DNA of 64,000 nucleotides from Leifsonia sp. 71-9 (GTDB lineage: Bacteria > Actinomycetota > Actinomycetes > Actinomycetales > Microbacteriaceae), in NCBI RefSeq assembly GCF_001898805.1, contig NZ_MKVJ01000018.1:142206-206205 (forward strand), in the 5' to 3' direction. Of the stretch, positions 35,723 to 51,978 are shown piece by piece; position 1 is the first letter of the stretch; each line of letters opens with the position of its first letter. The notes beneath the pieces are model-generated. The model saw only the letters and a program-made list of their open reading frames with translations. It was not told the origin of the DNA and did not search any database. The position numbers and the translations under genes were made by a program.

Positions 35723-38700
35723 TCAGCCCGCGTCGCGCTCCAGTTCCACCGCCTCCCGGATGCTAAGGGCGTAGATCCGCGAACGGCCGGGGCGGGCCGG
35801 GTCGCCGGTGACGTACGCGACGCTCTCCACATGCTGCTCGAACGCGTTCACCTTGTCGCGCGGGGCGCCGACGATCAGCTGGAAGCCGAGTCCGCGCAGC
35901 GCGGAGAGCGCCCGTCCGGTGTACTCGTTGTCCGCCTTGACGAAGCCCTCGTCGAGCACGATGGGGGCGTAGACGGGCACGCGGTCGGTGCCGTCGCCGA
36001 GGCGGTAGCGCAGGGCGGCGCCGAGGACGAAGGCGATCAGCTCCTGCCCCTCGCCGCCGGACTTGCCCGCCACGCCCTCGTGCACGATCTGCGCGCCGTC
36101 GCGTCGCGTCTCGATCGCGCGGAACTGGAAGTGCTCGCGCGCGTCGAGCACGCGGCGGCGCCAGGCCTCGCCGATGCGGGAGCGCTCCTCCAGTCGGCCG
36201 AGATCGGCGCGCAGCGAGAGGAAGTCCCGCTCCACCCGAGCCGGGTCGCGCGTCTCGCCCGGCTCGCCCGCGGTGTGCTTGCGGAGGGTGCGCTTGAACT
36301 CGGCCAGGTCGGTGTTGGTGGTGGGGCGCGGGTCGATGTCGAGGGTGGAGCCCTCGCGGAACTCGATGCCGTGCAGCGCCGACGAGATCGGCCGGACACC
36401 CCGCCGGATCGCGCGACCGTCCTCCTCGATCTGGGTCAGCAGCGCGCGCAGGCTGTCGCCCATGCTCGCGCCCGCCTTGGCGAGCCAGTCGGACTTCGCC
36501 CGCGGGAGGTCGTCCTCGACGAGCGAGCGCTGGATGGCGAGCGCGGCCGGGAGGCTGTCGATCGTGGCGTCGAGCTCGGCCGACGGATCCAGCTCCCGGT
36601 AGCGCTCGAAGGCGTTCAGCAGCAGGGTCTCCGACTGCTCGACGGTGCGCTCGTGCACCTCGATCTGGTCGCGCACCAGCCGCTCCGCGTCGGCGTAGCG
36701 GCGCCGGACGTCGGCCGCCTCCCGCGGGGCCGCGAACGGCAGGGAACCGAGCAGCGCGCGCTCGGCGTCGTCGAGCCCCGTCGCGTCGAGGTGGTCGGCG
36801 ACCTCGTCCTCGATGTCGGCGAGAGCGGCGTGCTCGGCGTCGAGCTGGTCGATGACGCGCTGGATGCCCGCGCCGCGTCGTGCTGCGGCGAGCCGGGCCT
36901 CGTCCTCGCGGTCGGCCGTGGCGGTGAGCTCGGCGACCTCGGGCCGCTCGACGGCGACCCGCTCGAGGCGCGCGGCGAGTTCGGCGACGCGCTCGGCGGC
37001 CGGCGTCACGTCGATCGACGCCCAGTCGAGGTCGGCGACGGAGGCGAGGGCCTCGCGCCGGTGGCGCTCGCCGGCCGAGCGCGACTCGGCGGAGTCGGAG
37101 GCCGCGCGGGCCTCGTCGAGCTCCGACTCGAGCCGCGCGATCTCGGCGGTGAGCTCGACGACGCGGGGCGCGTTGTCGAGGCCGATCCAGGAGTCGACGG
37201 CCCGGTCGTCCTTGATGACGCGGTCGCGGGAGCCGGTGCGCAGGCCCGCGCGGGTCACGGCGCCCTTGACGCCGATCGGGAGGGACGCATCCAGGTCGTC
37301 CGCCGACTCCACGCACAGGATGCTGCGGTCGGCCACGATCTCGTCGTGCAGCCAGCCGTGGAACGGGCTCTGCTCGTCGAAGGACAGCATCGCCGGGACG
37401 GTGCCGTCGATCGCCGTGCGCTCGGCCGGGGCGCCGACCTCGGCCGGCACCAGCACGACGCGGCCGCGCATGTCGTTGTCGTTCACGAAGCGGCGCGCGT
37501 CGGCGAACCGGCGCTCGTCCACCACGAGGTTCGTGGCGAGGTCGCCGAGGACGCGCTCGACGGCGCGCGACCAGTCGCGGCGGCCGGGAGCGACCTCGAA
37601 CAGCTCGCCCGCGTAGGGGAGGGCCTCTGGCGCGACACCGATGCCGTCGGCGATCCGCCGTCGACGCGCGTCGGCCTCGGGCGGCACGTTGCTGCGGCGC
37701 CGCTCGTACGACGCCTTCTGCGCGGTCTTCTCGGCCAGCGTGCGCTTGACGGTCTCCACCCGAGCGGCCAGCTCCCAGCGCTCGGAGCGGTCGTCCGCCG
37801 CCTCGGCGGAGGCGCTGAGCAGGGCGACGGCGCGCTCCTGGGACGCGGCGAGCTCGTCCGCCGTGAGCGGCAGGTCGAGCCCGGCGCTGGTCAGGACCCG
37901 CGCCGCGCGATCGCGCTCGCGCTCGAGCTGCGCGAGCATCAGGCCGGCGACCTCCTGCTCGCGGCGGATCGCCTCGGCGGGGTCGCCGCCGAGCGCGGCC
38001 AGCTGGTCGAGGGCGTCCTTGTGCGCCCGGTGCGCGGCGGCCTCCTCGTCGGCGGCGGCACGGCGGAGCGCCTCCTGCTCGCGCTTGGCGTCGCGCACGC
38101 GGTCGACCTCGCCGCGCACCCAGTCCGCGACCTTCGCCGACAGCCAGACCCAGACGCGGCTGCTCTCCTCGCCGTCGAGCGGCGCGAGCAGCCGGCGCTT
38201 GCCGGTCGCGTCCTCCAGGGCCGCGCGGTACTGCTCGGCGCGCACGGGCACGTCGGCGAGCACGTCGAGCTTGCGCCGCGTGGTCTCGAACACGTCGTAG
38301 AGGGCCGACGCCTCGCGGTAGCTGCTGAGCGTCGTCTCCCAGCGGGAGAGGGCGCGCGGCTCGGTGAGCACGAACTGCTTGAACAGCTCGTCGATCGAGA
38401 AGACGCCCTTCGACGCCTGGGCGCGGCGCAGCAGGGTGAGCGCCTTCAGCTGGGATTCGTCGCTTCCACCGATCCCGAGCTCCTCGCACAGCCGCACGCG
38501 GAACTCCGGCTGGGATCCCGTGACCAGGTCGCGCACCGGGTCGACGAGCCGACCGAGCGAGCCTCGCGTCAGCGGTGACGAGCTGCCGGGCTCGGGGCGC
38601 AGCTCCGCAAGGCGGGTGAGCGGGAACTCCCCGTGCACGAACACGTAGACGGTCGAGGAAGTCACCTCGTCCTGCGTGGCGGTGTCGCGGCCGAGCCAGG

Positions 38701-39151
38701 CGAGCCGGGCGGCGGTGATGGTCTCGCCGAGCTCGGTGCGCCAGGTGATCGCCGCGCCCGACGCGAACGCCGTCCCGAGCGGCCGGAGGAAGTGCGTGGT
38801 CGTGATGTCGGAGCCGGCTTCGCGCACCTCGTCCGTCTTGCCGCGGGCGTAGCTGTAGACCGTGCGCTCGGAGCGCTGGCGCGTGTCGTCGCGCGCGGCG
38901 CGGTTGAACTCCTGCGGGTTGGGCATGATGACCGCGGCCATGGCGTCGAGCACCGTCGACTTGCCGCGGCCCGTCGGCCCGAGGATGGCGAGACCGCCGC
39001 GTCCGACCGGCATGGTGTGGAGGTCGTCGTAGCTGCCCCAGTTGAGGAGCTGCACCTGCTCGATGCGGAACTGCCCGCTGTGGATCAGTCCGTCGGCGAG
39101 CGGGAGGTCGTCGTCCAGCTCCTCGTGCTCGGCGGTCATCAGGTCGGTCAC
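35723..39151 (-). CDS. jetC: SMC-like ATPase JetC/MksB of a Wadjet-type complex
   Basis: 1142 residues. N-terminal head with Walker A GPTGRGKST (58-66); long coiled coil (about 290-960) split by a hinge-like globular region (about 520-640); C-terminal head with signature KSGGEGQELIAFVLGAALRYRLG and Walker B VLDEGFVKAD. The SGGEGQ signature and domain order are MukB/MksB-like. With JetA and JetB it should form a loop-extruding complex that, in Wadjet, recognises small circular plasmids. GTG start overlaps jetB by 4 nt. The partner nuclease gene jetD is absent; the next gene is a convergent isochorismatase. Confidence 0.88.
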   Translation of the reverse strand: MTDLMTAEHEELDDDLPLADGLIHSGQFRIEQVQLLNWGSYDDLHTMPVGRGGLAILGPTGRGKSTVLDAMAAVIMPNPQEFNRAARDDTRQRSERTVYSYARGKTDEVREAGSDITTTHFLRPLGTAFASGAAITWRTELGETITAARLAWLGRDTATQDEVTSSTVYVFVHGEFPLTRLAELRPEPGSSSPLTRGSLGRLVDPVRDLVTGSQPEFRVRLCEELGIGGSDESQLKALTLLRRAQASKGVFSIDELFKQFVLTEPRALSRWETTLSSYREASALYDVFETTRRKLDVLADVPVRAEQYRAALEDATGKRRLLAPLDGEESSRVWVWLSAKVADWVRGEVDRVRDAKREQEALRRAAADEEAAAHRAHKDALDQLAALGGDPAEAIRREQEVAGLMLAQLERERDRAARVLTSAGLDLPLTADELAASQERAVALLSASAEAADDRSERWELAARVETVKRTLAEKTAQKASYERRRSNVPPEADARRRRIADGIGVAPEALPYAGELFEVAPGRRDWSRAVERVLGDLATNLVVDERRFADARRFVNDNDMRGRVVLVPAEVGAPAERTAIDGTVPAMLSFDEQSPFHGWLHDEIVADRSILCVESADDLDASLPIGVKGAVTRAGLRTGSRDRVIKDDRAVDSWIGLDNAPRVVELTAEIARLESELDEARAASDSAESRSAGERHRREALASVADLDWASIDVTPAAERVAELAARLERVAVERPEVAELTATADREDEARLAAARRGAGIQRVIDQLDAEHAALADIEDEVADHLDATGLDDAERALLGSLPFAAPREAADVRRRYADAERLVRDQIEVHERTVEQSETLLLNAFERYRELDPSAELDATIDSLPAALAIQRSLVEDDLPRAKSDWLAKAGASMGDSLRALLTQIEEDGRAIRRGVRPISSALHGIEFREGSTLDIDPRPTTNTDLAEFKRTLRKHTAGEPGETRDPARVERDFLSLRADLGRLEERSRIGEAWRRRVLDAREHFQFRAIETRRDGAQIVHEGVAGKSGGEGQELIAFVLGAALRYRLGDGTDRVPVYAPIVLDEGFVKADNEYTGRALSALRGLGFQLIVGAPRDKVNAFEQHVESVAYVTGDPARPGRSRIYALSIREAVELERDAG

Positions 39152-39849
39152 TCGTCCACCTCCGGGGCGTCGACGTGGGCGTGGGCAGCGGCCGGGGCGG
39201 CGTCGTCGCGGAGCTCGGCCCCGCTCGCCTCCTGGAACAGCCGCGTCAGGTGGGCCAGCTCGGTCGTGGTGACGAGGGGCACCACGGCGGGGGAGACCAC
39301 GTAGAGATCGGGGTCGTCGGTCTCGGGCACGAGCAGCCCGATGCGCTCCATCGCGGCGATCGCGGCGCGGATGCGCCGGTCGACGCGCACCTCGTCGTGC
39401 GACGCGTCGGTCTGGAAGCGCCCCAGGAACTCGGCGATGTGGTCGCGGCTGACCGTCACGGCCTCGTCAGCGGCATCGGTGTACGCGTGCTCCTGGCGCA
39501 GCAGGATGAGCAGCAGGGACGCGTCGCGGGACAGCGGCTTCTCGCGGCGGAGGAGCACGGGGGCGCCGTCCTCGGCGCTCTGGCGCTTGAAGGCGACCTC
39601 GTGGTCGCGGTCGATGGTCAGGGTGAGGAACAGCTCCTCCAGGCGGGCGCGCACGTCGTCCTCGTAGTCGACGAGCCCGCTCCACGCCTCGGGGTGCGTG
39701 GCGCGCGTGATGAACCTGCTCGTCAGGAGGGTGACGAGGGCGCGGCGCGCGGCCAGCGGGAGCCGCTCGTCGGCGGCGTCGCCGAACGCGTCGGCGGTCA
39801 CGGCCTCCACCTCGTCGAGATCCGTGTCGTCCGCGATCGTGTCGGTCAT
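39148..39849 (-). CDS. jetB: DUF4194 protein JetB/MksE
   Basis: 233 residues. LPLAARRALVTLLTSRFITRATHPEAWSGL, KRQSAEDGAPVLLRREKPLSRDASLLLILLRQ and RRIRAAIAAMERIGLL are the tandem winged-helix features of DUF4194 (MksE/JetB, kite-like subunit). It bridges the kleisin JetA and the JetC heads. ATG in an ATGA overlap with jetA; its stop overlaps the jetC GTG. An acidic N-terminus (about 1-30) and an Ala/His/Asp-rich tail are peripheral. Confidence 0.87.
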   Translation of the reverse strand: MTDTIADDTDLDEVEAVTADAFGDAADERLPLAARRALVTLLTSRFITRATHPEAWSGLVDYEDDVRARLEELFLTLTIDRDHEVAFKRQSAEDGAPVLLRREKPLSRDASLLLILLRQEHAYTDAADEAVTVSRDHIAEFLGRFQTDASHDEVRVDRRIRAAIAAMERIGLLVPETDDPDLYVVSPAVVPLVTTTELAHLTRLFQEASGAELRDDAAPAAAHAHVDAPEVDE

Positions 39850-41393
39850 CGCTCCGTCCTCCCGCCGCGTGCCGCGGCCGTCTCGTCGTCCGCGCCGCCG
39901 AAGCGGGTGCGCGGGAAGGTCACGTCGCGCGCGGTCTCGCCGGCCACGGCGATGCGCACGGTGTCGTCGCCGTCGAGGACCGTGTCCCGTTCGGCGGCGG
40001 CGTCGAGCAGGCTCACCAGCAGGCCGAGGCGCCGGAACTCCGGCGGCGTCGCCGCGTAGACCTCCGCGCCCGTGACCTCCGCGCGTTCGGCGAGCAGGCG
40101 CTCGATGGTCTCCTGCACCGCGTCGGGGCTGGTCCCGACCGCGAGGCGCAGGGCGGCGCGCTCCGACGCGGGCAACGCGTCCCGGCTCTCGGTCACGGCC
40201 ACCGCGATGTCGGGCCGCTCGCCGCCGCGCCAGACCTGCGTCTGCGTGACGTCGGTGAGCGCCCACGGGCCGAGCCCCAGCACGTCCTCCGGCACCGTGA
40301 CCGGCCCCGGCCGCACTTGGGCCCAGTGGGCGCCGGCCGCGAGGGCCTGGTCGGCCAGCGACAGGAGGCGCTGGTGCTTCTCCGCCCCCGAACGGCTGAG
40401 GAACCGGCGCAGCGACGACATCCACCGCACGTAGGTCTCCTGCACGGTCTGCTCCTCGGCGAGCAGCGAACCGATCAGGGTCTCCAGCTGCAGGCGCTGG
40501 CGCTCGGTCATCTCGGCGACGGCGAGCGGCTGGGCGAGCACGCGCTCGAGGTCGGCGCGCATCCCGTCGAGCCCGTGGGAGGACAGCATGGAGGCGAAGC
40601 CGCGGTAGGCGCGTCCCTCCGGCGTCTGCTCCAGGAGGTCGTTGTCGCGCAGGTACTGCTCGACCAGCGCGCCCTTGCCCACCTGGTCCTCGGTCGCGCG
40701 GCGGGCGACCTCCCGGTGCCGCTGCTCGACCATGGCGCTCAGGCGGCGGAAGTCCTCGGGGAGCGACGCGGTGAGGCGCAGCACCTCGCGCAGCTGGCGG
40801 CGCACGGCCTCCCCGGCGGCCGGCTCGACCCCGCCCGCCGCGATGCGCGCGCGGCGCGCCTGCAGCTGGGCGATCTGCTCGTCGATGCGCGAGAGCTGCG
40901 CGTCGGGATCGGGATCGGTCATGTCGGCCAGCTGGTGGACGGCATGGGCGATGCTGCCGAACCGGGCCTCCGAGACGACGGAGTCGGCGTCCACGAGCTC
41001 GCGGACGATGCGGAGCGCCTGGAGCGAGTACTGCGAGAGGCGGTACTCCGCGCGGCCCTCGCGGTCGTGCGGGCGCGAGCGGACCAGCCAGCGGTTGTCG
41101 ACCCAGCCGCGGCAGTAGTCGGCGGGCGCGGAACGGCGGGGGAGCCCCGGATCCTCCGCGGCGTCGTCCGCGACATCGGCGGACGCCGGAACCGCGTCGC
41201 CCTCGGAGACGGCGCTCAGCGCCTCGGCCACCTTCTGGTGGAACCAGTCGGCGGAGACGGGTCCGTCGGCGAACTCCAGATGCCGCGAGAACAGGGGGAG
41301 GATCCATCGTCCGTTGTGGCTGCGCAGCAGCGCCCAGGTGGGATGTTCTTCCCAGGCATCCGCGACCGGGTCGGCGGCGAGGGCCTCGTCCAT
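39846..41393 (-). CDS. jetA: DUF3375 kleisin-like protein JetA/MksF
   Basis: 515 residues of DUF3375. The N-terminal HPTWALLRSHNGRWILPLFSRHLE and YRLSQYSLQALRIV are a winged helix, followed by coiled coil (about 160-250) and a C-terminal winged helix (VYAATPPEFRRLGLLVSLLD). This is the kleisin of Wadjet/MksBEF complexes. ATG at 41393 with GGAGG only 3 nt away. The gene starts 26 nt after the tRNA-fMet terminator, leaving almost no room for a promoter of its own. First gene of jetABC with 4-nt overlaps throughout. Confidence 0.88.
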   Translation of the reverse strand: MDEALAADPVADAWEEHPTWALLRSHNGRWILPLFSRHLEFADGPVSADWFHQKVAEALSAVSEGDAVPASADVADDAAEDPGLPRRSAPADYCRGWVDNRWLVRSRPHDREGRAEYRLSQYSLQALRIVRELVDADSVVSEARFGSIAHAVHQLADMTDPDPDAQLSRIDEQIAQLQARRARIAAGGVEPAAGEAVRRQLREVLRLTASLPEDFRRLSAMVEQRHREVARRATEDQVGKGALVEQYLRDNDLLEQTPEGRAYRGFASMLSSHGLDGMRADLERVLAQPLAVAEMTERQRLQLETLIGSLLAEEQTVQETYVRWMSSLRRFLSRSGAEKHQRLLSLADQALAAGAHWAQVRPGPVTVPEDVLGLGPWALTDVTQTQVWRGGERPDIAVAVTESRDALPASERAALRLAVGTSPDAVQETIERLLAERAEVTGAEVYAATPPEFRRLGLLVSLLDAAAERDTVLDGDDTVRIAVAGETARDVTFPRTRFGGADDETAAARGGRTER

Positions 41394-41419
41394 ATTCCTC
41401 CGCGCTGGGGTTCGGGATC

Positions 41420-41461
41420 AAAAAAAGGCCCGGACCGGGGATTTCTCCTCGAGTCCGGGCC
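41420..41461 (-). terminator. Rho-independent terminator of tRNA-fMet, abutting jetA
   Basis: On the minus strand GGCCCGGAC and GTCCGGGCC form a 9-bp stem followed by seven T (41426-41420). It is the only terminator here with a proper U-tract. It lies between the tRNA and the jetA start. Confidence 0.85.
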
Positions 41462-41468
41462 TGTCCGG

Positions 41469-41542
41469 TTGCGGGGGCAGGATTTGAACCTACGACCTCT
41501 GGGTTATGAGCCCAGCGAGCTACCGAGCTGCTCCACCCCGCG
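41469..41542 (-). tRNA. Initiator tRNA-fMet (CAU)
   Basis: 74 nt, folds as a standard cloverleaf with anticodon CAU in CTCATAA. The 5' C1 faces A72 (CGCGGGG ... CCCCGCA), an unpaired end diagnostic of bacterial initiator tRNA. The anticodon stem has GGG/CCC next to the loop, also initiator-specific. The D-loop and TTCAAAT T-loop are normal. The 3' CCA is not encoded (A73 is followed by CCG). Promoter TAGAGT lies 12 nt upstream. Confidence 0.95.
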
Positions 41543-41554
41543 GCACAAGAAATG

Positions 41555-41583
41555 ACTCTAGCACGGGTCTGAGGGGCTGGGAA
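41555..41583 (-). promoter_or_regulatory. Promoter of tRNA-fMet
   Basis: TAGAGT (41560-41555, minus strand) 12 nt before the mature 5' end, with TTCCCA (41583-41578) 17 nt upstream as a weak -35. Confidence 0.5.
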
Positions 41584-41645
41584 ATCGAACCCGTATCCCG
41601 GGCGCGTCCGGCGCGCTCTTCGCGGCGGTAGACCGCCCGTCCCAC

Positions 41646-41651
41646 TAAAGT
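41646..41651 (+). promoter_or_regulatory. TAAAGT -10 box of the seven-gene operon
   Basis: TAAAGT lies 26 nt before the ATG at 41678, which also has an AGGGGA SD. The leader would be about 20 nt. Confidence 0.45.
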
Positions 41652-41677
41652 CGGGTGCAAGACGTAGGGGACAGCGC

Positions 41678-42742
41678 ATGGCGAGTAGCACTCAGAAGTA
41701 CCGGGTGGTCGTGATCGAGGACGACCCGGATGTGGCCTTCTTCATGAAGACCGTGCTCGAGAAGCGGGCGGACGCGGTGGTGACGGCGATCACCGACCCC
41801 TCGCGGGCGCTCTCCACCATCGCCGAATTCGAGCCCGACCTCGTCCTGACCGACATCGAGATGCCGGGCATCTCGGGCCTCGACCTGCTCAAGGAGCTGC
41901 GCTCGCAGTATCCCGGCATGCCGGTCGTGGTCATGACCGCCCACGTCTCGGTCGACTACGCCGTCGCAGCGTTGCGGAGCCAGGCCGACGAGTTCCTCAC
42001 CAAGCCGGTCGCCTCGGCCGACCTCGTCTCGATCGTCACCCGGCTGGCGGAGGAGGGGCGGACCAAGCGCGCCGCCGGCCGTCAGCAGGTGGTGCTCGCC
42101 ATCGGCGCCCACCCCGACGACGTGGAGATCGGTGTCGGCGGCATCCTCGCCGCGCACCGGGACGCCGGCAACCAGGTCGTGATCCTGACCCTGTCGCGCG
42201 GTGCGCGCGGCGGCGACGCGGACGACCGCCAGCACGAGTCGCTCGCCGCGGCGGAGCTGCTCGGCGCCCGCCTGTTCCTGGAGGACCTCGAGGACACCCA
42301 CATCTCCGCGGCCGATCCGACCGTGTCGATCATCGAGCGGGTGGTGCGGGAGGTCGAGCCCGACATCGTCTACACGCACTCCGCCCACGACCGCCACCAG
42401 GATCACCGCGCGGTGCACGCCGCCGTCAACGTGGCGACCCGCAACGTGCGGACCGTCTGCTGCTTCCAGAGCCCGAGCGCGACCATCGACTTCCGCCCCA
42501 CGCGGTTCGTCCCGATCGACGGCTTCACGGATGCCAAGCTGGCCCTCATCGACTGCTTCCGCTCGCAGGACCTGCGCGCCTACCTCGAGCACGACTTCGT
42601 GCTCGCGACCGCGCGCTACTGGTCCCGCTTCGGCGGCGGCACGATGTGCGAGCCGCTCGAAGTCATGCGGGACACCGCCGACATCTCCATCCCCGCCTCG
42701 ACGATCTCGACCGAGGCCCGACTCCGAAGGACCGCCGAATGA
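41678..42742 (+). CDS. Response-regulator receiver fused to PIG-L deacetylase
   Basis: 354 residues. A CheY-like receiver (1-125) has acidic pocket E14/D15/D16, phospho-acceptor D59 (LVLTDIEMPG), T87 and K109. It is fused to a PIG-L/LmbE zinc deacetylase (about 136-345) with AHPDD (144-148) and the ligand cluster HSAHDRHQDH (234-243). PIG-L enzymes remove acetyl groups from GlcNAc-like or related substrates; here phosphorylation would directly gate the hydrolase (inference). First gene of a seven-gene operon with AGGGGA 6 nt before the ATG. The ATGA overlap joins it to the ATP-grasp gene. Confidence 0.88.
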   Translation: MASSTQKYRVVVIEDDPDVAFFMKTVLEKRADAVVTAITDPSRALSTIAEFEPDLVLTDIEMPGISGLDLLKELRSQYPGMPVVVMTAHVSVDYAVAALRSQADEFLTKPVASADLVSIVTRLAEEGRTKRAAGRQQVVLAIGAHPDDVEIGVGGILAAHRDAGNQVVILTLSRGARGGDADDRQHESLAAAELLGARLFLEDLEDTHISAADPTVSIIERVVREVEPDIVYTHSAHDRHQDHRAVHAAVNVATRNVRTVCCFQSPSATIDFRPTRFVPIDGFTDAKLALIDCFRSQDLRAYLEHDFVLATARYWSRFGGGTMCEPLEVMRDTADISIPASTISTEARLRRTAE

Positions 42743-43737
42743 CCAGAGTTCTCGTGACAGGCGCGGGCGGCCCCGCGGGCGTCGCCGTGATCCGCTCGCT
42801 GCTCGCGAGGGACGACGTCGACGTGCTCGCCGCCGACATGGACGGCTGGGCGAGCGGCCTCTACCTGGTGCCGGCGGCGAACCGCCGGATCGTGCCGGCC
42901 GGCCGCTCGGAGACGTTCGTCGACGAGCTCATCGCGATGTGCGGCGCCGACGGCGTGGACGTGCTGTTCTCGACCGTCGACGTCGAGCTCCCCGGGCTCG
43001 CCGCCCGCCGTGACGAGCTGCAGGCCGTCGGAACGGCGCTGGCCGCCCCGAGCCACGAGACCCTCGTCACCTGCCTGGACAAGTTCCGGCTGGCCGAGCG
43101 GGTGGAGGGCTCCGCCCGCATCCCGCGCACCCGGCTGCTGACCGCCGAGGGCGTGGCGGAGGACTGGGACTTCCCCGTCATCATCAAGCCCCGCAGCGGT
43201 GCGGGCTCGCGCGGCGTCCGGCTCATCCCCGACCGCGCGGCGCTCGAGGCCGTGCCACTGGACGACAGCATCCTGATCCAGGAGAACCTGCCGGGGGAGG
43301 AGTTCTCCGTCGACGTGCTGGCCGGCCTGGACGGCTCCGTCATCGCCGCGGTGCCGCGGTCGCGCGAGCGGGTCGACTCCGGCGTCTCGATCGCCGGTCG
43401 CACCGTGAAGCGGGACGAGCTCTCCGACACGGCCGCCGCGGTCGCGCGGTCGATCGGCCTCACCGGCGTCGCGAACGTGCAGCTGCGCTACAGCGTGGAG
43501 GGCACCCCCGCCCTGCTCGAGGTGAACCCCCGCTTCCCGGGCGCCATGCCGCTCACGATCGCGGCCGGCGTCGACATGCCGTCGCTCCTGCTCGACCTCG
43601 TGCTCGGCCGCCCGGTGCCCGCGACCGTCGACTTCCGCGAGCTCGCCAACGTGCGGTTCCTCGAGGACGTCTTCCTCGACCCGGCCGACGTGCTGGTCTC
43701 GGAGAACGCGGCGCACGCCGACGAGCTCGACGAGTGA
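42739..43737 (+). CDS. ATP-grasp domain ligase
   Basis: 332 residues. An N-terminal Rossmann-like pre-ATP-grasp domain (VLVTGAGGPAGVAVIRSL) is followed by an ATP-grasp fold: PVIIKPRSGAGSRGV binds ATP, ILIQENLPGEEFSVDVL follows, and LLEVNPRFPGAMPLTIAAGV carries the Glu/Asn metal ligands. Related to carbamoyl-phosphate-synthase-like single ATP-grasp proteins, which join a carboxylate to an amine via an acyl phosphate. The substrate is unknown; the amine could be the product of the preceding deacetylase (inference). ATGA overlap upstream and GTGA overlap downstream. Confidence 0.83.
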   Translation: MTRVLVTGAGGPAGVAVIRSLLARDDVDVLAADMDGWASGLYLVPAANRRIVPAGRSETFVDELIAMCGADGVDVLFSTVDVELPGLAARRDELQAVGTALAAPSHETLVTCLDKFRLAERVEGSARIPRTRLLTAEGVAEDWDFPVIIKPRSGAGSRGVRLIPDRAALEAVPLDDSILIQENLPGEEFSVDVLAGLDGSVIAAVPRSRERVDSGVSIAGRTVKRDELSDTAAAVARSIGLTGVANVQLRYSVEGTPALLEVNPRFPGAMPLTIAAGVDMPSLLLDLVLGRPVPATVDFRELANVRFLEDVFLDPADVLVSENAAHADELDE

Positions 43738-44510
43738 CCGCCGGGCGTCCCGTGATCGACGTCGCCGAGCTGCTCCGCGGCGACTTCCACGTGCACTCCG
43801 CCTTCTCCGACGACGCGGTCAGCACGCTCGCCGAGAACATCGCCGCGGCCGACGCCGCCGGACTCGACCGTCTGCGGTTGAACGACCACGTGCGCGCGTC
43901 GACGACCTGGGTGCCGGAGTTCGTCGCGGCCGTCGCGGCCGAGCGGATCCCCTCGGGTCTCACCGTGTTCACGGGCGTCGAGACCAAGCTGCTCGACGTG
44001 ACCGGAGCGGTGGATGTGCCGGCCGACCTCGTCGTCGGGGCGGGCGGCGTCGACACGATCGTGATCGGCGACCACCAGTTCCCGGGCACGGACGGCCCCT
44101 GGTCCCCTCAGGCCACGCGCGACCGCCTCGCCGCGGGCCTCTCGGAGGCGGACGCCCTCGACCTGCTCGTCACGGCCAGCATCCGGGCGATGGAGCGCAC
44201 CCCGCAGGCGCAGCTCGCCCACTGGTTCTCCATCCTGCCCAAGGTCGGCCTCGACGAGGCGCAGCTCGGAGCCGACCGGCTGACGGCGTGGGCCCAGGCG
44301 GCGGCCGCCACCGGCACCGTCGTCGAGGTGAACGAGAAATGGGCGTGCCCCGGCGTGGAGGCGATCGTCGCCCTCCAGCGGGCCGGAGCGCGTATCGTTG
44401 CCTCCACCGACAGTCACATCGCGAGCGACGTCGGCCGGTACGACCGGGCGACCGCGCTCCTCACGGAGGCGGCCCGCCGGCTCGCGCCCGAGGGTGAGGA
44501 CGACCGATGA
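43734..44510 (+). CDS. PHP-domain metal-dependent hydrolase
   Basis: 258 residues. FHVHSAFSDDAVST (HxH), LNDHVR, FTGVETKLLD, DHQFPG, EVNEKW and STDSHIASDVG mark the PHP trinuclear-metal site, resembling YcdX/histidinol-phosphatase-like members rather than the RNase AM type at 9073. It likely hydrolyses a phosphoester or related bond. Linked by 4-nt overlaps to the ATP-grasp gene and the small membrane protein. Role in the pathway unknown. Confidence 0.82.
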   Translation: MTAGRPVIDVAELLRGDFHVHSAFSDDAVSTLAENIAAADAAGLDRLRLNDHVRASTTWVPEFVAAVAAERIPSGLTVFTGVETKLLDVTGAVDVPADLVVGAGGVDTIVIGDHQFPGTDGPWSPQATRDRLAAGLSEADALDLLVTASIRAMERTPQAQLAHWFSILPKVGLDEAQLGADRLTAWAQAAAATGTVVEVNEKWACPGVEAIVALQRAGARIVASTDSHIASDVGRYDRATALLTEAARRLAPEGEDDR

Positions 44511-44662
44511 GCCCCATCGAGCTGAACCGTGCGCAGCGGACCGAGATGCAGCGCGAGATCGACCAGAACCGTCGCTGGGAGCGACGACTGCCGGTGTACG
44601 CGGCGATCTCCCTGCTCGTGCTCGCGGCGATCGTCGTGGTCCGGGTAGTGTTCTTCTCGTGA
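44507..44662 (+). CDS. 51-residue single-pass membrane protein
   Basis: Begins MSPIELNRAQRTEMQREIDQ: a charged amphipathic N-terminus (about 1-28), then one membrane helix (about 29-49, VYAAISLLVLAAIVVV) and a short FFS end. Too small for most gene finders but firmly supported: its ATG overlaps the PHP stop (ATGA) and its TGA overlaps the receiver GTG (GTGA), so it sits exactly in register in the coupled operon. Candidate membrane anchor or sensor partner for the histidine kinase (inference). No family recognised. Confidence 0.8.
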   Translation: MSPIELNRAQRTEMQREIDQNRRWERRLPVYAAISLLVLAAIVVVRVVFFS

Positions 44663-45045
44663 CCGGACGCGTCCCGCGCATCGTCATCGCCGATGACGAC
44701 GACGACATCCGCGGCCTCATGGTGATCGCCGCGAAGCGTGCCGGCGTCGAGGTCGTGGCCGCCGTGGACAACGGCCGCTCCGCCCTCGAGACGCTCCTGT
44801 CCGACGACATCGACCTCGCCGTGCTCGACATCTCCATGCCCGGCCTCAACGGAGTGGAGGTCGCCGAAGCCGTCCGCGCGCAGCGACCGGACACCCTCAT
44901 CCTGATGGTCTCCGCCTCCGTGCAGCTGCTCACGGACCACGGGGTGGTCGCCGAGCGCTCCGACGGGTTCATCATCAAGCCGTTCAGCCCCCGGGTGCTG
45001 ACGGAGCGCATCCGCGCGATGCTCGGCATCGAGGTGAGCGCATGA
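44659..45045 (+). CDS. Stand-alone response-regulator receiver
   Basis: 128 residues, receiver only. Acidic patch ADDDDD (11-16), phospho-acceptor D57 (AVLDISMPG), S85 in place of the common Thr, K107 (IIKPF). It has no output domain, so it works as a CheY-like partner or phospho-relay intermediate. Between the small membrane protein and the histidine kinase, with 4-nt overlaps on both sides. Confidence 0.9.
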   Translation: MTGRVPRIVIADDDDDIRGLMVIAAKRAGVEVVAAVDNGRSALETLLSDDIDLAVLDISMPGLNGVEVAEAVRAQRPDTLILMVSASVQLLTDHGVVAERSDGFIIKPFSPRVLTERIRAMLGIEVSA

Positions 45046-46850
45046 CGCTCGACCGGCTGCTCGGCCGCCTCCCCATCGATTCGCCGTCGGTCATCATGAA
45101 GCAGCTCCCGACGCTGGCCGGTTTCGTCCTGGCGCTCGCCGTGGTGCTCATCCCCGACTTCGTGCCGGTCGACCACCCCGGGTACGTGTGGGCGTCCATC
45201 GCCGCGATCGCCGTCGCCACCCTCCTCGCGGGCGTGCTGCCGTGGCACCGGATCCACGACGGCTGGATCACCGTCGTGCCGCTGGTCTCGCTGCTCGCGA
45301 TCGGCCTGCTGCGTCTCGGCACGGGCGGGTCGACCTCGCCGATCGCGGTCATCCTCCTCCTGCCGTTCATCTGGATCGCCACCGAGGAGGGGCGCCGCAA
45401 CATCCTCATCGCCACGGCCGGGATGTTCGTCGTGCTCCTGGCGCCGCTGTACGCGACGGGCGTTCCCGGCACCCCCGTCGATCTCGTGCGGGCCCTGTTC
45501 TCGCCGGTCATCTACTTCATCGTCGCCACGGTCATCAACGAGATCGCGCACCGGCTCCGCTCCCAGCTGGCCGCCACGAAGGCCGCGGCCGAGCAGCGGG
45601 CCGAGCTGCTCGCGCAGGCGGTCACGGCGCAGGACGAGCTGGTGCTCAACGAGGCCCGCCTGAAGACCGCCAACCGGCTCATCCAGAGCATCTGGAACGC
45701 GGTGACCGAGCAGTCCGTCATCGGCACCGACCTCGACGGCCTCATCGACGTGTGGAACCCCGGCGCGGAGAAGATGTTCGGGCTCACCGAGAAGCAGGTC
45801 GTCGACGGCGATCGGCACATCGTCGAGTTCCATCTGGCGTCCGAACTGGAGGAGCGCCTGCGCGATATGGACGCGCGCTTCACGACGGTCGCCAGTGCGG
45901 ACGACTTCTCCGCGCTCGTCGACACCGTGCGGGCCGGGTACGCCGACGTGCGGGACTGGACCTACGTGCGCCCCGACGGCAAGCGCGTCCCCGTGCAGGT
46001 GGCGGCGACGCCCCGCATCGACGAGAACGGCCACCGCGTCGGCTTCATCTTCGTGGCCACCGACATGACCCAGGCGCGGGAGTTCGCGCGTCTGAAGGAC
46101 GAGTTCGTCGGCCTGATCTCGCACGAGCTGCGCACACCGCTCAGCTCGATCCTGGGCTACCTCGAACTGATGCGCGACGACGACGAGTCGCCGCTCTCGG
46201 ACGAGCAGCTGCAGTACCTCGCCGTCGCGGAACGCAACGCGCACCGGCTGCTGCGCCTGGTCGGCGACCTGCTCTTCACCGCCCAGGTCGAGTCGGGGCG
46301 GTTCCCGCTCGACATCAAGGACGTCGAGCTCGGCTCCGTCGTCGCGGCCTCGGTCGAGACGGCGCGACCCATCGCGGCCGCGGCCGGCGTCACGCTCGTC
46401 AGCGAGGTGCCGGAGGGGCAGGTGGAGGTCCGCGGCGACGCGGTGCGCCTCGGCCAGGCCGTCGACAACCTCATCTCCAACGCAGTCAAGTTCACGCCGT
46501 CCGGCGGCACCGTCACCGTCGCGCTGCAGCCGGCCGCGGAGGAGGCGGTGATCGCGGTCACCGACACCGGCATCGGGATCCCCGCCGTCGAGCTGAGCCA
46601 GCTCTCGCAGCGCTTCTTCCGCGCCTCCACCGCCACGCGCAACGCCGTCCCCGGCGTCGGCCTCGGCCTCACGATCACCAAGGCGATCGTGACGGCTCAC
46701 GGCGGCCGGCTCGACATCGCGAGCGAGGAGGGCGTCGGCACCTCCATCAGCATCGCCCTGCCGGTGGAGACGCCGCAGCCGGTGGTGGATGCGCTGCCCG
46801 GCGCCGACTCCGTGCCCGCGGCCGGATCCGTGCGCGGAGCGACGTCGTGA
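45042..46850 (+). CDS. Membrane PAS-domain sensor histidine kinase
   Basis: 602 residues. Five to six membrane helices (about 22-165), a coiled coil (170-215), PAS (about 215-345, with WNPGAEKMFGLTE and PDGKRVPV), HisKA with phospho-acceptor H361 (LISHELRTPL) and HATPase with N box DNLISNAVKF, G1 DTGIGI and G2 GVGLGL. It autophosphorylates and should pass phosphate to the receivers at 44659 and in the PIG-L fusion. There is no DNA-binding regulator in the operon. The membrane region is sensor-like (DUF or MASE-type not assigned), so the signal is unknown. Confidence 0.9.
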   Translation: MTLDRLLGRLPIDSPSVIMKQLPTLAGFVLALAVVLIPDFVPVDHPGYVWASIAAIAVATLLAGVLPWHRIHDGWITVVPLVSLLAIGLLRLGTGGSTSPIAVILLLPFIWIATEEGRRNILIATAGMFVVLLAPLYATGVPGTPVDLVRALFSPVIYFIVATVINEIAHRLRSQLAATKAAAEQRAELLAQAVTAQDELVLNEARLKTANRLIQSIWNAVTEQSVIGTDLDGLIDVWNPGAEKMFGLTEKQVVDGDRHIVEFHLASELEERLRDMDARFTTVASADDFSALVDTVRAGYADVRDWTYVRPDGKRVPVQVAATPRIDENGHRVGFIFVATDMTQAREFARLKDEFVGLISHELRTPLSSILGYLELMRDDDESPLSDEQLQYLAVAERNAHRLLRLVGDLLFTAQVESGRFPLDIKDVELGSVVAASVETARPIAAAAGVTLVSEVPEGQVEVRGDAVRLGQAVDNLISNAVKFTPSGGTVTVALQPAAEEAVIAVTDTGIGIPAVELSQLSQRFFRASTATRNAVPGVGLGLTITKAIVTAHGGRLDIASEEGVGTSISIALPVETPQPVVDALPGADSVPAAGSVRGATS

Positions 46851-47653
46851 CCTCGGTCGCCGTCGCCGTCGCGCAGTTCACCCCGCGCGACGATCGGGCG
46901 CACAACCGGGAGGTCGTCGCCGGGCTGATCGCGGTCGCCGCCGAGCGCGGCGCGCGGCTGGTCGTGTTCCCGGAGTACTCCTCCTACTTCACCGACCCGC
47001 TCGGCCCGTCGTTCGCGCACAACGCGGAACCGCTCGACGGGGAGTTCGTGGACGCCCTCGCGGGCGCGGCGCGCGACCACGGCGTGCACGTGGTCGCCGG
47101 GCTGGTCGAACGCACGGACGAGCGGCACCGCTTCGCGAACGCCCTGGTGGCGGTGGCGCCCAGCGGCGACGTGGTCGCCGTCTACCGCAAGCAGCATCTC
47201 TACGACGCCTTCGGCTCCCGCGAGTCCGACTGGGTCGTGCCCGGCGAGCTCGGCGAGCCGCAGCTGTTCGAGGTCGACGGGCTGCGGGTCGGCCTGCAGA
47301 CCTGCTACGACCTCCGCTTCCCCGAGGTCACCCGGCTCCTCGCCGACGCGGGAGCGGATCTCGTCGCCATCCCGGCCGAGTGGGTGCGCGGCCCGCTCAA
47401 GGAGCACCACTGGACGACGCTCCTGCAGGCGCGCGCGATCGAGAACACCCTCTACGTCGCGGCCGCCGACCACACCCCGCCCATCGGCGTGGGCGCGAGC
47501 GCGATCGTCGACCCGATGGGGGTGACCGTCGCCGCCCTCGCCGAGACCACCGGTGTCGCCGTGGCCGAGGCGTCGCGCGAGCGGGTCGATCAGGTCAGGG
47601 AGGTCAACCCGGCCCTGGCCCTGCGGCGGTACCGGGTCGTCCCTCGCGACTGA
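46847..47653 (+). CDS. Nitrilase-superfamily carbon-nitrogen hydrolase
   Basis: 268 residues. The Glu-Lys-Cys triad is visible: E in VVFPEYSSYF, K in VYRKQHLYDAF, C in LQTCYDLRFPE, with a further Glu in the EHHW region. Resembles omega-amidase/deaminated-glutathione-amidase-like members. It hydrolyses amide C-N bonds. As the last gene of the coupled operon it may cleave or repair the amide product of the ATP-grasp enzyme (inference). GTG start in a 4-nt overlap with the kinase gene. Confidence 0.87.
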   Translation: MTSVAVAVAQFTPRDDRAHNREVVAGLIAVAAERGARLVVFPEYSSYFTDPLGPSFAHNAEPLDGEFVDALAGAARDHGVHVVAGLVERTDERHRFANALVAVAPSGDVVAVYRKQHLYDAFGSRESDWVVPGELGEPQLFEVDGLRVGLQTCYDLRFPEVTRLLADAGADLVAIPAEWVRGPLKEHHWTTLLQARAIENTLYVAAADHTPPIGVGASAIVDPMGVTVAALAETTGVAVAEASRERVDQVREVNPALALRRYRVVPRD

Positions 47654-47662
47654 GCCCGCGGA

Positions 47663-48859
47663 TCAGGCGCTGAGACCGGCGAGCCGGCCGGCCGCCTCCT
47701 CCAGCACGCCGATCCGCTTGCAGAAGGCGAAACGCACCAGCGACGCCGTGCGCTCCGCGTACTCGTCGCGGCAGAAGGCGGCCAGCGGCACCGCCACGAC
47801 CCCGGCGAGGTCGGGGAGCGCGCGGCAGAAGGCGACCGCATCCCGATGGCCGAGGGGAGCGGCGTCGGCGACGACGAAATACGTGCCGTCGGTGGGGAGC
47901 ACCCCGAAGCCCGCCGCGCGCAGGCCGGCGGACAGGACGTCCCGCTTGTGCGCGAGGTCGGCGGCGATCCCGGTGAAGTACGAGTCGGGAAGAGCGAGGC
48001 CGGCCGCGATCGCGGGCTGGAACGGCGCCGCGTTCACATAGGTCAGGAACTGCTTGACGGCGAGGACGGCCGTCACGAGCTCCGGCGGCGCGGTGAGCCA
48101 GCCGACCTTCCACCCGGTCGTGTTGAAGGTCTTGCCTCCCGACGAGATGGTGACGGTGCGCTCGCGCGCCCCCGGGAGCGTCGCGATCGGGATGTGCGCG
48201 GGGCCGAACGTGAGGTGCTCGTAGACCTCGTCGGTCACGATGATCGCGTCGTGCCGCTCGGCGAGCTCGACGATCGTCTGGAGCAGCTCCCGGTCGAACA
48301 CCGTCCCGGTGGGGTTGTGCGGCGTGTTCACGAGGATCACGCGGGTGCGGTCGGTGACGGCGGCACGCAGCCGCTCGGGATCGGGCAGGAACGCGGGTGG
48401 CTCCAGCGGGACGGTGACGTGCCGCCCGCCGGCCAGGGCGATGACGGCGCCGTATTCGTCGTAGAAGGGCTCGAAGGTCACGACCTCGTCGCCGGGTTCG
48501 AGCAGGGCGAGCAGGGTCGCGGCGATCGCCTCCGTGGCGCCCGCCGTGACCAGCACCTCGCGATCGGGCTCGAGCTCGATCCCGTAGAACCGCCGCTGGT
48601 GCTCGGCGACGGCGTGACGCAGCACCGGGGTGCCCGGCCCGGGCGGGTACTGGTTCGCCCCGCTCCTGATCGCCTCGACCGCGGCGTCGAGCACCGCGGC
48701 GGGGCCGTCCTCGTCGGGGAAGCCCTGCCCCAGATTGATCGCGCCCGTGCGCGCGGCGAGGGCGCTCATCTCCGCGAAGATCGTCGGGCGGACCGTTCCG
48801 TCCGCTCCGAGCAGGCCTGCTCCGTCCGCCGCGCGCCGCCAGGCTCCCGAGACCGTCAT
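47663..48859 (-). CDS. Class I/II PLP-dependent aminotransferase
   Basis: 398 residues. NLGQGFPDEDGP, NQYPPGPGTP, VNTPHNPTG and ISSGGKTFNTTGWKVGW (Schiff-base Lys) are the fold I aminotransferase motifs, with the kynurenine/glutamine-aminotransferase-like GFPD. YbdL/DapC-type subfamily; if it uses glutamine or methionine, its oxo-acid product would be an omega-amidase substrate, and the convergent neighbour at 46847 is omega-amidase-like. ATG at 48859 has AGAGG 5 nt upstream; a GTG at 48865 is the alternative. Convergent with the nitrilase gene at a 9-nt gap. Confidence 0.87.
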   Translation of the reverse strand: MTVSGAWRRAADGAGLLGADGTVRPTIFAEMSALAARTGAINLGQGFPDEDGPAAVLDAAVEAIRSGANQYPPGPGTPVLRHAVAEHQRRFYGIELEPDREVLVTAGATEAIAATLLALLEPGDEVVTFEPFYDEYGAVIALAGGRHVTVPLEPPAFLPDPERLRAAVTDRTRVILVNTPHNPTGTVFDRELLQTIVELAERHDAIIVTDEVYEHLTFGPAHIPIATLPGARERTVTISSGGKTFNTTGWKVGWLTAPPELVTAVLAVKQFLTYVNAAPFQPAIAAGLALPDSYFTGIAADLAHKRDVLSAGLRAAGFGVLPTDGTYFVVADAAPLGHRDAVAFCRALPDLAGVVAVPLAAFCRDEYAERTASLVRFAFCKRIGVLEEAAGRLAGLSA

Positions 48860-48920
48860 CTCCACCTCTTCCTCGTGTGCGCCTCCAACCTACGGCCTGG
48901 GCCGCCGGGGAGTCGTCGAC

Positions 48921-48926
48921 TACGTT
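48921..48926 (+). promoter_or_regulatory. TACGTT -10 box upstream of HtrA gene
   Basis: TACGTT fits TANNNT about 100 nt before the ATG at 49026, giving a 90-nt leader. No clear -35. Confidence 0.35.
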
Positions 48927-48992
48927 AAGGAGAGTCATCGACAGGCGGAAGGCAGCCCACAGGGGGCGCAAATAGAACACCCAGGTTCGCGT

Positions 48993-49017
48993 CCCAAGCT
49001 GTTCCTGCTTGGAAGGA
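48993..49017 (+). promoter_or_regulatory. Hairpin adjoining the HtrA Shine-Dalgarno
   Basis: CCAAGC and GCTTGG form a 6-bp stem (loop TGTTCCT) directly before AAGGAG. The loop TTCCT is complementary to AGGA of the SD, so an alternative pairing could hide the SD. Structure by eye only. Confidence 0.35.
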
Positions 49018-49025
49018 GCAACACC

Positions 49026-50813
<1,788 letters not shown>

Positions 50814-50830
50814 CCCGCCCCGCGGACCTG

Positions 50831-50862
50831 AAGGCCGTCCCGTGCTCGCACGGGGCGGCCTT
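50831..50862 (+). terminator. Hairpin terminator after HtrA
   Basis: AAGGCCGTCCCGTGC pairs with GCACGGGGCGGCCTT (one G-T wobble) around a 2-nt loop, followed by a weak T-rich stretch. Confidence 0.75.
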
Positions 50863-50932
50863 CCGTCGCGTGCCGGGGGCGTCCAGCCACCGGCTGGTAG
50901 GCTCGGGCGGACCCGAAAGACGAATGGAACAC

Positions 50933-51976
50933 ATGCCGGACGACACCCCGAACACCCTTCCCGGTGTCTCGTATGTGATGCCCGTGCTGAACGAGGCGAC
51001 GCACGTGCGCGCCGCGGTCGACAGCCTGCTCGACCAGGACTACGCCGGCCCGATCGAGGTCACCGTCGCCCTGGGCCCGAGCATCGACGGCACCACGGAG
51101 CTGGTGGCGGAGCTCGCCGCCGTCGACTCCCGCATCCGGATCGTCGACAACGTCGTGGGTTCCACGCCAGCCGGGCTGAACCTCGCCATCCGGGAGTCCC
51201 GCTACCCGATCGTCGTCCGCGTCGACGCGCACAGCGTGCTGCCGTCCGACTACACCCGCATCGCGGTCGAGACGATCCTCGAGACCGGCGCCGACAACGT
51301 CGGCGGCCTGATGGACGCCCAGGGCACCACCGATTTCGAGCGCGCGGTCGCCCGCGCCTACGGCAGCAGGGTCGGTCTCGGCGGCACGAAGCTCCACGTC
51401 GGCGGTGACGCCGGCCCGGCCGAGACGGTCTACCTCGGCGTGTTCCGCCGCGACCGCCTCCTGGAGGTCGGCCTGTTCGACGAGGAGATCAAGCGCGGCC
51501 AGGACTGGGAGCTCAACCGCCGGATCCGCGCCGCCGGCGGCACCGTCTGGTTCACGCCGCGGCTCACGGTCACCTACCGTCCGCGCCCCAATCTCTACCG
51601 GCTCGGGCGGCAGTTCTTCTCGACCGGCATCTGGCGGGGCGAGCTCGCCCGCCGCTACCCGGCCTCGAACGGTCTGCGCTACTTCGCACCGCCGGTCATG
51701 GTGCTCGGCGTCGCCATCGGCACCCTGCTCGGGATCGCCGGCATCGTCCAGGCGGTGCTGGGCGCCACCCCGTGGCTGCTCTGGGGATTCGCCGCCCCGG
51801 TCTTCTACGTGCTGATCGACGTCGTCTCGGCGCTGCTCTGGGGGAGGCGCGACGGTTTTCGCCCGTTCCTCTGGTTTCTCGTAGTCTTGCCGTGCATCCA
51901 TTTCTGCTGGGGGATCGGATTCGTTCTCGGATACCTCTCCCTCACGCGCAACATCACGGCCCACACGGGAAGGTAG
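50933..51976 (+). CDS. Family 2 glycosyltransferase with C-terminal membrane helices
   Basis: 347 residues. GT-A fold: VSYVMPVLNEATHVRAAVDSLLDQDY, VRVDAHSVLP (the DxH/DxD-type metal motif is DAH), GGTKLHVGGDAG, EEIKRGQDWELNRRIR (EDxELxxR-like catalytic region is QDWELNRR). Three membrane helices near the C-terminus (about 255-340). Likely adds sugar to a lipid-linked envelope glycan. Start uncertain: ATG 50924 and ATG 50933 are both in frame and neither has a strong SD. First of a three-gene cluster; the CDP-alcohol transferase starts 2 nt after its stop. Confidence 0.83.
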   Translation: MPDDTPNTLPGVSYVMPVLNEATHVRAAVDSLLDQDYAGPIEVTVALGPSIDGTTELVAELAAVDSRIRIVDNVVGSTPAGLNLAIRESRYPIVVRVDAHSVLPSDYTRIAVETILETGADNVGGLMDAQGTTDFERAVARAYGSRVGLGGTKLHVGGDAGPAETVYLGVFRRDRLLEVGLFDEEIKRGQDWELNRRIRAAGGTVWFTPRLTVTYRPRPNLYRLGRQFFSTGIWRGELARRYPASNGLRYFAPPVMVLGVAIGTLLGIAGIVQAVLGATPWLLWGFAAPVFYVLIDVVSALLWGRRDGFRPFLWFLVVLPCIHFCWGIGFVLGYLSLTRNITAHTGR

Positions 51977-51978
51977 GC

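Follow-up and report, generated by a model that had tools for sequence, protein, structure and literature searches.

How does a histidine kinase exert its effect when the operon that encodes it contains several enzymes and no DNA-binding regulator? This question is raised by seven open reading frames (ORFs) on the plus strand at 41678–47653 of a 64,000-nucleotide stretch of the genome of Leifsonia sp. 71-9 (contig NZ_MKVJ01000018.1; hereafter the window), in which each of the six junctions is a 4-nt ATGA or GTGA overlap. The ORFs encode a receiver fused to a PIG-L de-N-acetylase (REC-PIG-L), an ATP-grasp ligase, a PHP-family phosphoesterase, a 51-residue membrane protein, a stand-alone receiver, a histidine kinase, and a nitrilase-superfamily amidase. 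An earlier sequence-only reading had picked out the same ORFs and overlaps, which we find where it placed them and with the domains assigned by Pfam, and had read the locus as a phospho-relay that plausibly acts on a glycan- or thiol-like amino compound.

Comparison of gene content across genomes indicates that the fusion, the ATP-grasp ligase, the PHP protein, and the small membrane protein belong together with a GT2 glycosyltransferase, which in the window genome is encoded elsewhere, and it is very probable that these genes and the GT2 work as one functional set. The reading that we prefer, with modest confidence, is that the operon supplies the regulation and the modification of precursors, one half of a surface-glycan system that depends on a synthase, of which the GT2 would be the other half, and that the deacetylase is gated by the kinase via its own receiver.

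Results

The REC-PIG-L fusion and the operon's kinase

The fusion (41678–42742, plus strand, 354 residues) matches Response_reg with 101.9 bits at residues 10–120 and the PIG-L/LmbE de-N-acetylase family (PF02585) with 86.8 bits, compared to a cut-off of 28.2, at residues 140–253, so that both domains lie over their cut-offs. The key receiver residues D15, D59 (the acceptor), T87, and K109 are all present; in our alignment of fusions (A2), D59 is invariant and the other three are nearly so. The predicted zinc-binding and catalytic set of the PIG-L domain, H145, D147, D148, H240, and H243, is likewise intact, with catalytic roles that we presume from MshB. An AlphaFold model of the fusion has a pLDDT of 89 and a pTM of 0.66, and its PIG-L part folds like BshB-type and diacetylchitobiose deacetylases by Foldseek, with MshB also among the matches and CheB at rank 31. 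The nearest named relatives are two Leifsonia loci (L122 and L147), with 85–86% identity. In a Frankiaceae metagenome-assembled genome (MAG), the fusion seems by eye to have two receivers ahead of PIG-L (L165:10028–11491).

The stand-alone receiver (44659–45045, plus strand, 128 residues; Response_reg 77.9 bits) has its acceptor at D57; both acceptors lie where they are expected to be in a receiver. The histidine kinase (45042–46850, plus strand, 602 residues) has a hydrophobic membrane region at about 25–169, followed by PAS (226–344), HisKA (352–419, with H361), and HATPase_c (465–576) domains, all three over their Pfam cut-offs. The term phospho-relay is not borne out, as a Pfam search recognized an HPt domain in none of the seven proteins. 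The proposal that the two-component output is directed at an enzyme fares better, being supported by the intact receiver, the intact PIG-L site, and an operon that is indeed free of any DNA-binding regulator; that last feature does not generalize, since an OmpR-type regulator lies near the fusion in three other loci (L125, L155, and L169).

Co-occurrence of the fusion with its partners

The sequence-only reading had suggested looking for the fusion together with ATP-grasp and PHP genes, and a strong link is found across genomes. These searches scored the best candidates of each genome (at most 10 for the fusion and for ATP-grasp, 7 for the GT2 at the family level, 3 for the GT2 at the class level, and 5 for the fusion at the phylum level), and weak relatives may be missed. 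Genes of relatives were called with a codon-score caller, so that starts and gaps are approximate. At the family level, the fusion query at 1e-30 matched 36 of 199 genomes, in 31 of which the match is full length and in five single-domain or partial. The GT2 (E ≤ 1e-60) was found in 17 of the 199 and ATP-grasp in 18, the eighteenth being a weak match (G049, E 9.5e-24). The genomes with the GT2 are exactly those with the close ATP-grasp, and all 17 hold a full-length fusion. In a class-level sample the GT2 is rarer still (8/394 genomes); the seven genomes of that sample other than the window's, taken together with G568, all have PIG-L and ATP-grasp, with the receiver on PIG-L in seven of the eight and a match to the PIG-L part only in G714. 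A phylum-level sample yielded the fusion at 1e-40 in three of 396 genomes, the window's own included.

A scan of named genomes returned at least 80 loci, of which 48 of those listed have a fusion hidden Markov model (HMM) score of at least 250. In the stretch examined at these 48, ATP-grasp (>150 bits) accompanies the fusion in 40, the GT2 (>500 bits) in 32, PHP (>150 bits) in 30, and all three in 26; the 48 include contigs shared with the sampled genomes, contigs that end early, and the two Leifsonia loci L122 and L147, which lack the GT2 like the window.

The GT2 synthase

Of the 17 family genomes with the GT2, 13 encode this protein of about 496 residues between PHP and the small membrane protein. 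The remaining four belong to the window genus, where the operon lacks the gene and a GT2 of the same subfamily is found elsewhere in the genome (4/4 sampled). In the window genome it lies at G000:C21:265493–266941, unlinked to the operon and flanked by genes that by eye seem unrelated, and it is 72% identical to the GT2 of locus L043. In the GT2 tree, the four window-genus copies group with a second, distal copy of one genome (G025), and their cluster adjoins operon copies of other genera, not the one that the nearest relatives (G028 and G103) have in their operon. Because they group apart from the latter, the operon GT2 was probably lost in this genus and another member of the subfamily put into service.

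By its model, the GT2 is assigned to the cellulose/hyaluronan-synthase superfamily of membrane synthases. The model of the window-genome protein (pLDDT 88, pTM 0.87) can be matched over its length to cellulose and hyaluronan synthases with TMq values of 0.45–0.56, and its best match by E-value is the mannosyltransferase PcManGT. The QxxRW motif, D149/D151, and E243/D244 do not vary across 18 rows, and the C-terminal hydrophobic helices are present.

The ligase, the phosphoesterase, and the small membrane protein

The ATP-grasp ligase (42739–43737, plus strand, 332 residues) is of the ATP-grasp_3, PRK12767-like kind and matches ATPgrasp_Ter (PF15632) with 110.2 bits over a cut-off of 29.1; no ter genes were found among the part of the window neighbors that was scanned. 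K150, E261, N263, and R265, presumed ATP and magnesium residues, are invariant in 17 aligned rows. The PHP-family phosphoesterase (43734–44510, plus strand, 258 residues; Pfam PHP 30.4 bits, cut-off 26.4) retains all its candidate metal ligands, H19, H21, D26, H52, E83, H114, H163, D226, and H228, in 12 aligned rows. The 51-residue protein (44507–44662, plus strand) consists of one hydrophobic helix and is without a Pfam match. Its relatives come after the GT2 gene, and two Legionella GT2s carry a C-terminal extension that resembles it (a weak HMM match of about 10–11 bits), a resemblance that suggests that the small protein is a subunit of the synthase.

Decay of PIG-L where the synthase is absent

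Family genomes that have the fusion without the GT2 and ATP-grasp provide a natural experiment. The catalytic set of PIG-L is intact in 17/17 genomes with the GT2 versus 6/14 without it (Fisher P 0.0004, shared ancestry ignored), where the 14 rows are full-length fusions and a piece of about 157 residues (L068, genome G191) was left out. The key residues of the receiver, by comparison, are kept in 13 of these 14. Three of the 17 rows with the GT2 are gapped at D15, one of them also at D59, which reflects a short gene start or ORF piece and not a substitution. Identity to outgroups follows the same pattern: to Blastococcus, PIG-L identity is 0.75 with the GT2 versus 0.58 without it, and receiver identity 0.52 versus 0.51 (15 rows each); to Cellulomonas, the values are 0.62 versus 0.52 for PIG-L and 0.54 versus 0.51 for the receiver. 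The rows for this comparison were listed by hand, those with the GT2 omitting the window and L049, and those without it omitting L067 and adding the named loci L136 and L141, in which absence of the GT2 was judged from the locus. In a tree of the fusions, from which 13 of 92 rows (duplicates and non-fusions) had been removed, catalytic breaks of differing kinds are spread over several sub-branches.

Loci outside Actinobacteria and partly similar loci

The actinobacterial scope of the sequence-only reading proved too narrow, as the fusion also occurs in Proteobacteria and in a Myxococcales MAG. Fusion, ATP-grasp, and GT2 are found together in Legionella rowbothamii, L. drozanskii, a Marinicella MAG, a Burkholderiales MAG, and two Rhodospirillales records. 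PHP was not seen above 150 bits in the stretch examined at these six loci; one proteobacterial MAG (L198) and the Myxococcales MAG (L158) do have it. A histidine phosphatase (PF00300) adjoins ATP-grasp in L157 and L163, ORFs of similar size occupy that position in L159, L160, L162, and L164 (with an RHGE motif, read by eye, in L160), and no histidine phosphatase was recognized beside ATP-grasp in L153 and L154. TPR proteins with domains over cut-off adjoin the GT2 in five loci (L153, L154, L157, L159, and L163); their best NCBIfam matches are general TPR families, with PgaA and BcsC on the list, and their C-termini look barrel-like when the sequence is read by eye. L157 additionally encodes an HPt protein and a hybrid kinase. 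In the L. drozanskii locus, a GH81 beta-1,3-glucanase (L160:1229–3364) lies beside the GT2, a possible hint of the polymer.

Several other loci resemble the system in part. In L071, L072, L170–L172, L174–L178, and L183, a seemingly receiver-less PIG-L lies near ATP-grasp and a different branch of GT2, with a kinase-like and a receiver-bearing gene downstream of the group in L177 and L183. Four kinase-like genes follow the fusion in a Microbacteriaceae MAG (L142:9038–17392, on the same contig as L062). A second receiver-linked polysaccharide synthase locus, L074:5350–9088, encodes a cellulose-synthase-like GT2, STAS and HATPase_c_2 proteins, and a REC-SpoIIE phosphatase whose receiver is 50–55% identical to that of the fusion; L069 and L075 are similar. 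In Arthrobacter phages (H5 and H6), a gene annotated as a glucosaminyl deacetylase (PIG-L like) adjoins a glycosyltransferase gene.

Proposed mechanism and its alternatives

In the mechanism that we propose, the histidine kinase would sense a cue and phosphorylate D59 of the fusion receiver, which may alter access to the zinc site in the manner of CheB, in whichever direction the gating runs; that PIG-L activity is gated through D59 seems to us rather probable. PIG-L would then de-N-acetylate or spare a GlcNAc-type residue (N-acetylglucosamine) on a precursor, a lipid-linked unit, or the nascent chain at the cytosolic face of the membrane. The ATP-grasp ligase may acylate the freed amine with a carboxylate, although we hold amide formation by this enzyme to be slightly more doubtful than assured. 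PHP, or the histidine phosphatase instead in two scanned proteobacterial loci, would take a phosphate off an intermediate, and the GT2 with its small subunit would polymerize and export the glycan, with the order of the steps as well as the identity of the polymer kept provisional. A secreted polymer is the fairly likely product. The free thiol-like metabolite of the sequence-only reading finds no backing, as the constant partner is a GT2 membrane synthase, with which the 51-residue protein belongs. More tentatively still, and on balance doubtfully, these systems may represent a class of synthase in which a kinase sets the substituents of the glycan and not its amount: the phospho-receiver PIG-L would unmask amines, ATP-grasp would re-cap them with other acyl or aminoacyl groups, and the synthase would export the result, while lineages without the synthase would keep a decaying pseudo-enzyme as a response regulator.

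A number of observations weigh against this proposal. The best NCBIfam match of a relative's GT2 (P0008) is the poly-N-acetylglucosamine (PNAG) synthase PgaC/IcaA at 114 bits, far short of the cut-off of 422, and the synthase fold matches are loose, with root-mean-square deviations of about 12–16 over the full chain. The inter-domain arrangement in the fusion model is uncertain, as its pTM indicates. Known PIG-L substrates are small or lipid-linked, and we know of no earlier case in which a cytosolic PIG-L modifies a polymer that is exported. ATP-grasp, GT2, and PHP are all below threshold in the stretch examined at seven of the 48 listed fusion loci. On the fusion tree, absence of the GT2 amounts to only two changes, with two named loci that were judged by their stretch included, and the Fisher and Mann-Whitney P-values, in which shared ancestry is ignored, therefore overstate independence. 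Finally, four fusions from Rhodospirillales and other Alphaproteobacteria have substitutions at key receiver positions (K109 is replaced in 3/4, D59 is kept), both Legionella fusions lack D15, and in Occultella and Serinicoccus the receiver is lost or degenerate, in all cases with PIG-L intact.

The PIG-L of these last lineages can therefore probably work ungated. An ORF beside the Occultella GT2 (L166:14280–15746) has no family assignment and no match in the PDB better than E 0.08. Taken with the decay of PIG-L in genomes without the GT2, the losses lead us to regard catalysis, on comparative grounds, as tied to the synthase set, and the receiver as a control that can be lost and can outlive the enzyme.

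Among the alternatives, the one that survives best, if still unlikely, retains the deacetylate-and-ligate idea of the sequence-only reading and adds a glycosyltransferase to it. Following the logic of mycothiol synthesis, the GT2 would place GlcNAc on a lipid of the membrane or on a small acceptor, PHP would dephosphorylate, PIG-L would deacetylate, and ATP-grasp would acylate, so that the product would be finite, a glycolipid or a small conjugate. These four activities have counterparts in MshA, the MshA2 phosphatase step, MshB, and MshC, the PIG-L model has BshB and MshB among its matches, and PcManGT, the best fold match of the GT2 by E-value, is a mannosyltransferase. However, the GT2 resembles cellulose and hyaluronan synthases along its chain and has the QxxRW motif, whereas MshA and BshA are soluble GT4 enzymes, and the TPR proteins that adjoin the GT2 in five Gram-negative loci end in what reads by eye as a barrel.

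A different alternative, which we regard as improbable, leaves the chemistry as it is and questions the gating: the receiver would serve for docking, as a scaffold, or as a phosphate sink, PIG-L would be constitutive, and the kinase would signal via the lone receiver or another protein. The retention of receiver residues in 13/14 of the GT2-less Microbacteriaceae while the enzyme decays fits this view, as it implies that the fusion protein has a use without catalysis, and so do the lineages in which PIG-L is kept and the receiver changed or missing. On the other hand, the family genomes with the GT2 retain both the receiver and the active site on a single chain (apart from the gaps at receiver positions in 3/17 rows), and receiver-gated enzymes such as CheB are established (PMC12471899).

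Operon layout, nitrilase, and surroundings

The gene overlaps exceed chance expectation. At the fusion/ATP-grasp junction, 15 of 17 genomes retain an in-frame start that gives the overlap; the corresponding counts are 14/17 at ATP-grasp/PHP, 11/13 at PHP/GT2, and 13/13 at GT2/small protein, and at the PHP/small protein junction all four GT2-less operons have such a start. The remaining same-strand junctions of the window have a 4-nt overlap in 3/23, possibly an undercount, because the codon-score caller misplaces starts. Given this conservation among relatives, translational coupling of the genes of the set is likely; the further claim that the products are made in fixed ratio does not follow, as overlaps do not show ratios.

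The seventh gene, which encodes the nitrilase-superfamily carbon–nitrogen hydrolase (46847–47653, plus strand, 268 residues; CN_hydrolase 167.4 bits), is a different matter. Its nearest NCBIfam model is deaminated glutathione amidase (239 bits, below the equivalog cut-off of 355), and next to it on the minus strand lies a convergent pyridoxal phosphate (PLP)-dependent aminotransferase (47663–48865; over the cut-off of NF005855/PRK07777), which is its partner and stands outside the system. The pair (46847–48865), which makes sense without reference to the operon, resembles omega-amidase (Nit2) and glutamine transaminase in that an amidase of the nitrilase family goes with a PLP aminotransferase, here in convergent orientation; it differs in being a housekeeping pair outside the signaling set, with the amidase under the equivalog cut-off. 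That the nitrilase performs the last hydrolysis of a seven-gene pathway, as first proposed, is very improbable: it is joined to the operon by a co-directional 4-nt overlap in the window and in many loci of Microbacteriaceae has the fusion or the kinase as its neighbor, but it occurs in 22/22 Microbacteriaceae genomes tested, including 16/16 without the fusion, has the convergent aminotransferase beside it in 18/22 (13/16 of the fusion-less), and in 5/6 fusion genomes of this set is either distant from the fusion or on a different contig. We judge it from this distribution to be a separate housekeeping gene, co-transcribed by position and not part of the system.

Upstream of the operon, on the opposite strand, lies a tRNA-Met gene (41469–41542), which was the only RNA element to reach its gathering score within 38000–52000. 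Across it, and divergent from the operon, the minus strand carries the Wadjet genes JetA (39846–41393), JetB (39148–39849), and JetC (35723–39151); no JetD was recognized among the neighbors scanned, and 33962–35101 encodes a ROK-family protein. The operon itself was considered as a defense system and rejected, the PADLOC matches of its seven proteins being weak. As for a mobile-element origin, 80% coverage of the fusion is reached by neither of the two plasmid records that match and by one of 17 matching records in a phage collection, an unannotated fecal contig.

Discussion

The sequence-only reading had not recognized the operon as a described system, and our literature search agrees with it: no title or abstract was found that describes a receiver/PIG-L fusion or a PIG-L/ATP-grasp/GT2 set, in a search outside which most subscription journals and preprints lie. 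Related architectures exist. CheB is a known receiver–enzyme fusion (PMC12471899), and fusions of a receiver to GT2 occur in Methanobacteriaceae (PMC5847659); the term 'PIG-L' is absent from the main text of both papers. Like the fusion described here, these proteins combine a receiver and a metabolic enzyme in a single chain, but here the fusion is kept with a fixed set of enzymes across phyla.

Two well-known pathways offer further comparison. PgaC/IcaA is the best NCBIfam match of a relative's GT2, and the PNAG/PIA systems (PgaABCD and IcaADBC) likewise have a GT2 membrane synthase with a small membrane partner, an N-deacetylase, and, in some Gram-negatives, a TPR outer-membrane-like protein. 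PgaB and IcaB are extracytoplasmic CE4 deacetylases, whereas the deacetylase here is of the PIG-L kind, cytosolic, and joined to a receiver, the GT2 falls far under the PgaC cut-off, and ATP-grasp and a phosphatase are added. The mycothiol and bacillithiol pathways (MshA-MshB-MshC and BshA-BshB-BshC) share the sequence of glycosylation, de-N-acetylation by a PIG-L enzyme, and acylation of the amine. They rely on a soluble GT4 and on MshC or BshC, while the glycosyltransferase linked to the fusion is a GT2 membrane synthase and the ligase an ATP-grasp enzyme, under receiver control.

Exopolysaccharide synthases are usually seen as switched by transcription or by cyclic di-GMP. Although receiver–enzyme fusions as such are known, what would be new here is a glycan system, dependent on a synthase, whose cytosolic deacetylase carries its own receiver switch. 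The gene set suggests that these cells adjust the chemistry of a secreted coat directly, through phosphorylation of a protein and not by gene control. If this is true, such post-translational tuning of coat chemistry would be fast. A receiver-bearing deacetylase that both Actinobacteria and Proteobacteria retain alongside a synthase, an ATP-grasp ligase, and a phosphatase makes it directly testable whether a kinase controls the chemistry of a glycan, and the set predicts an undescribed N-substituted surface glycan. The lineages without the GT2, in which the receiver outlives the enzyme, offer in addition a natural test of how fusions turn into pure signaling proteins.

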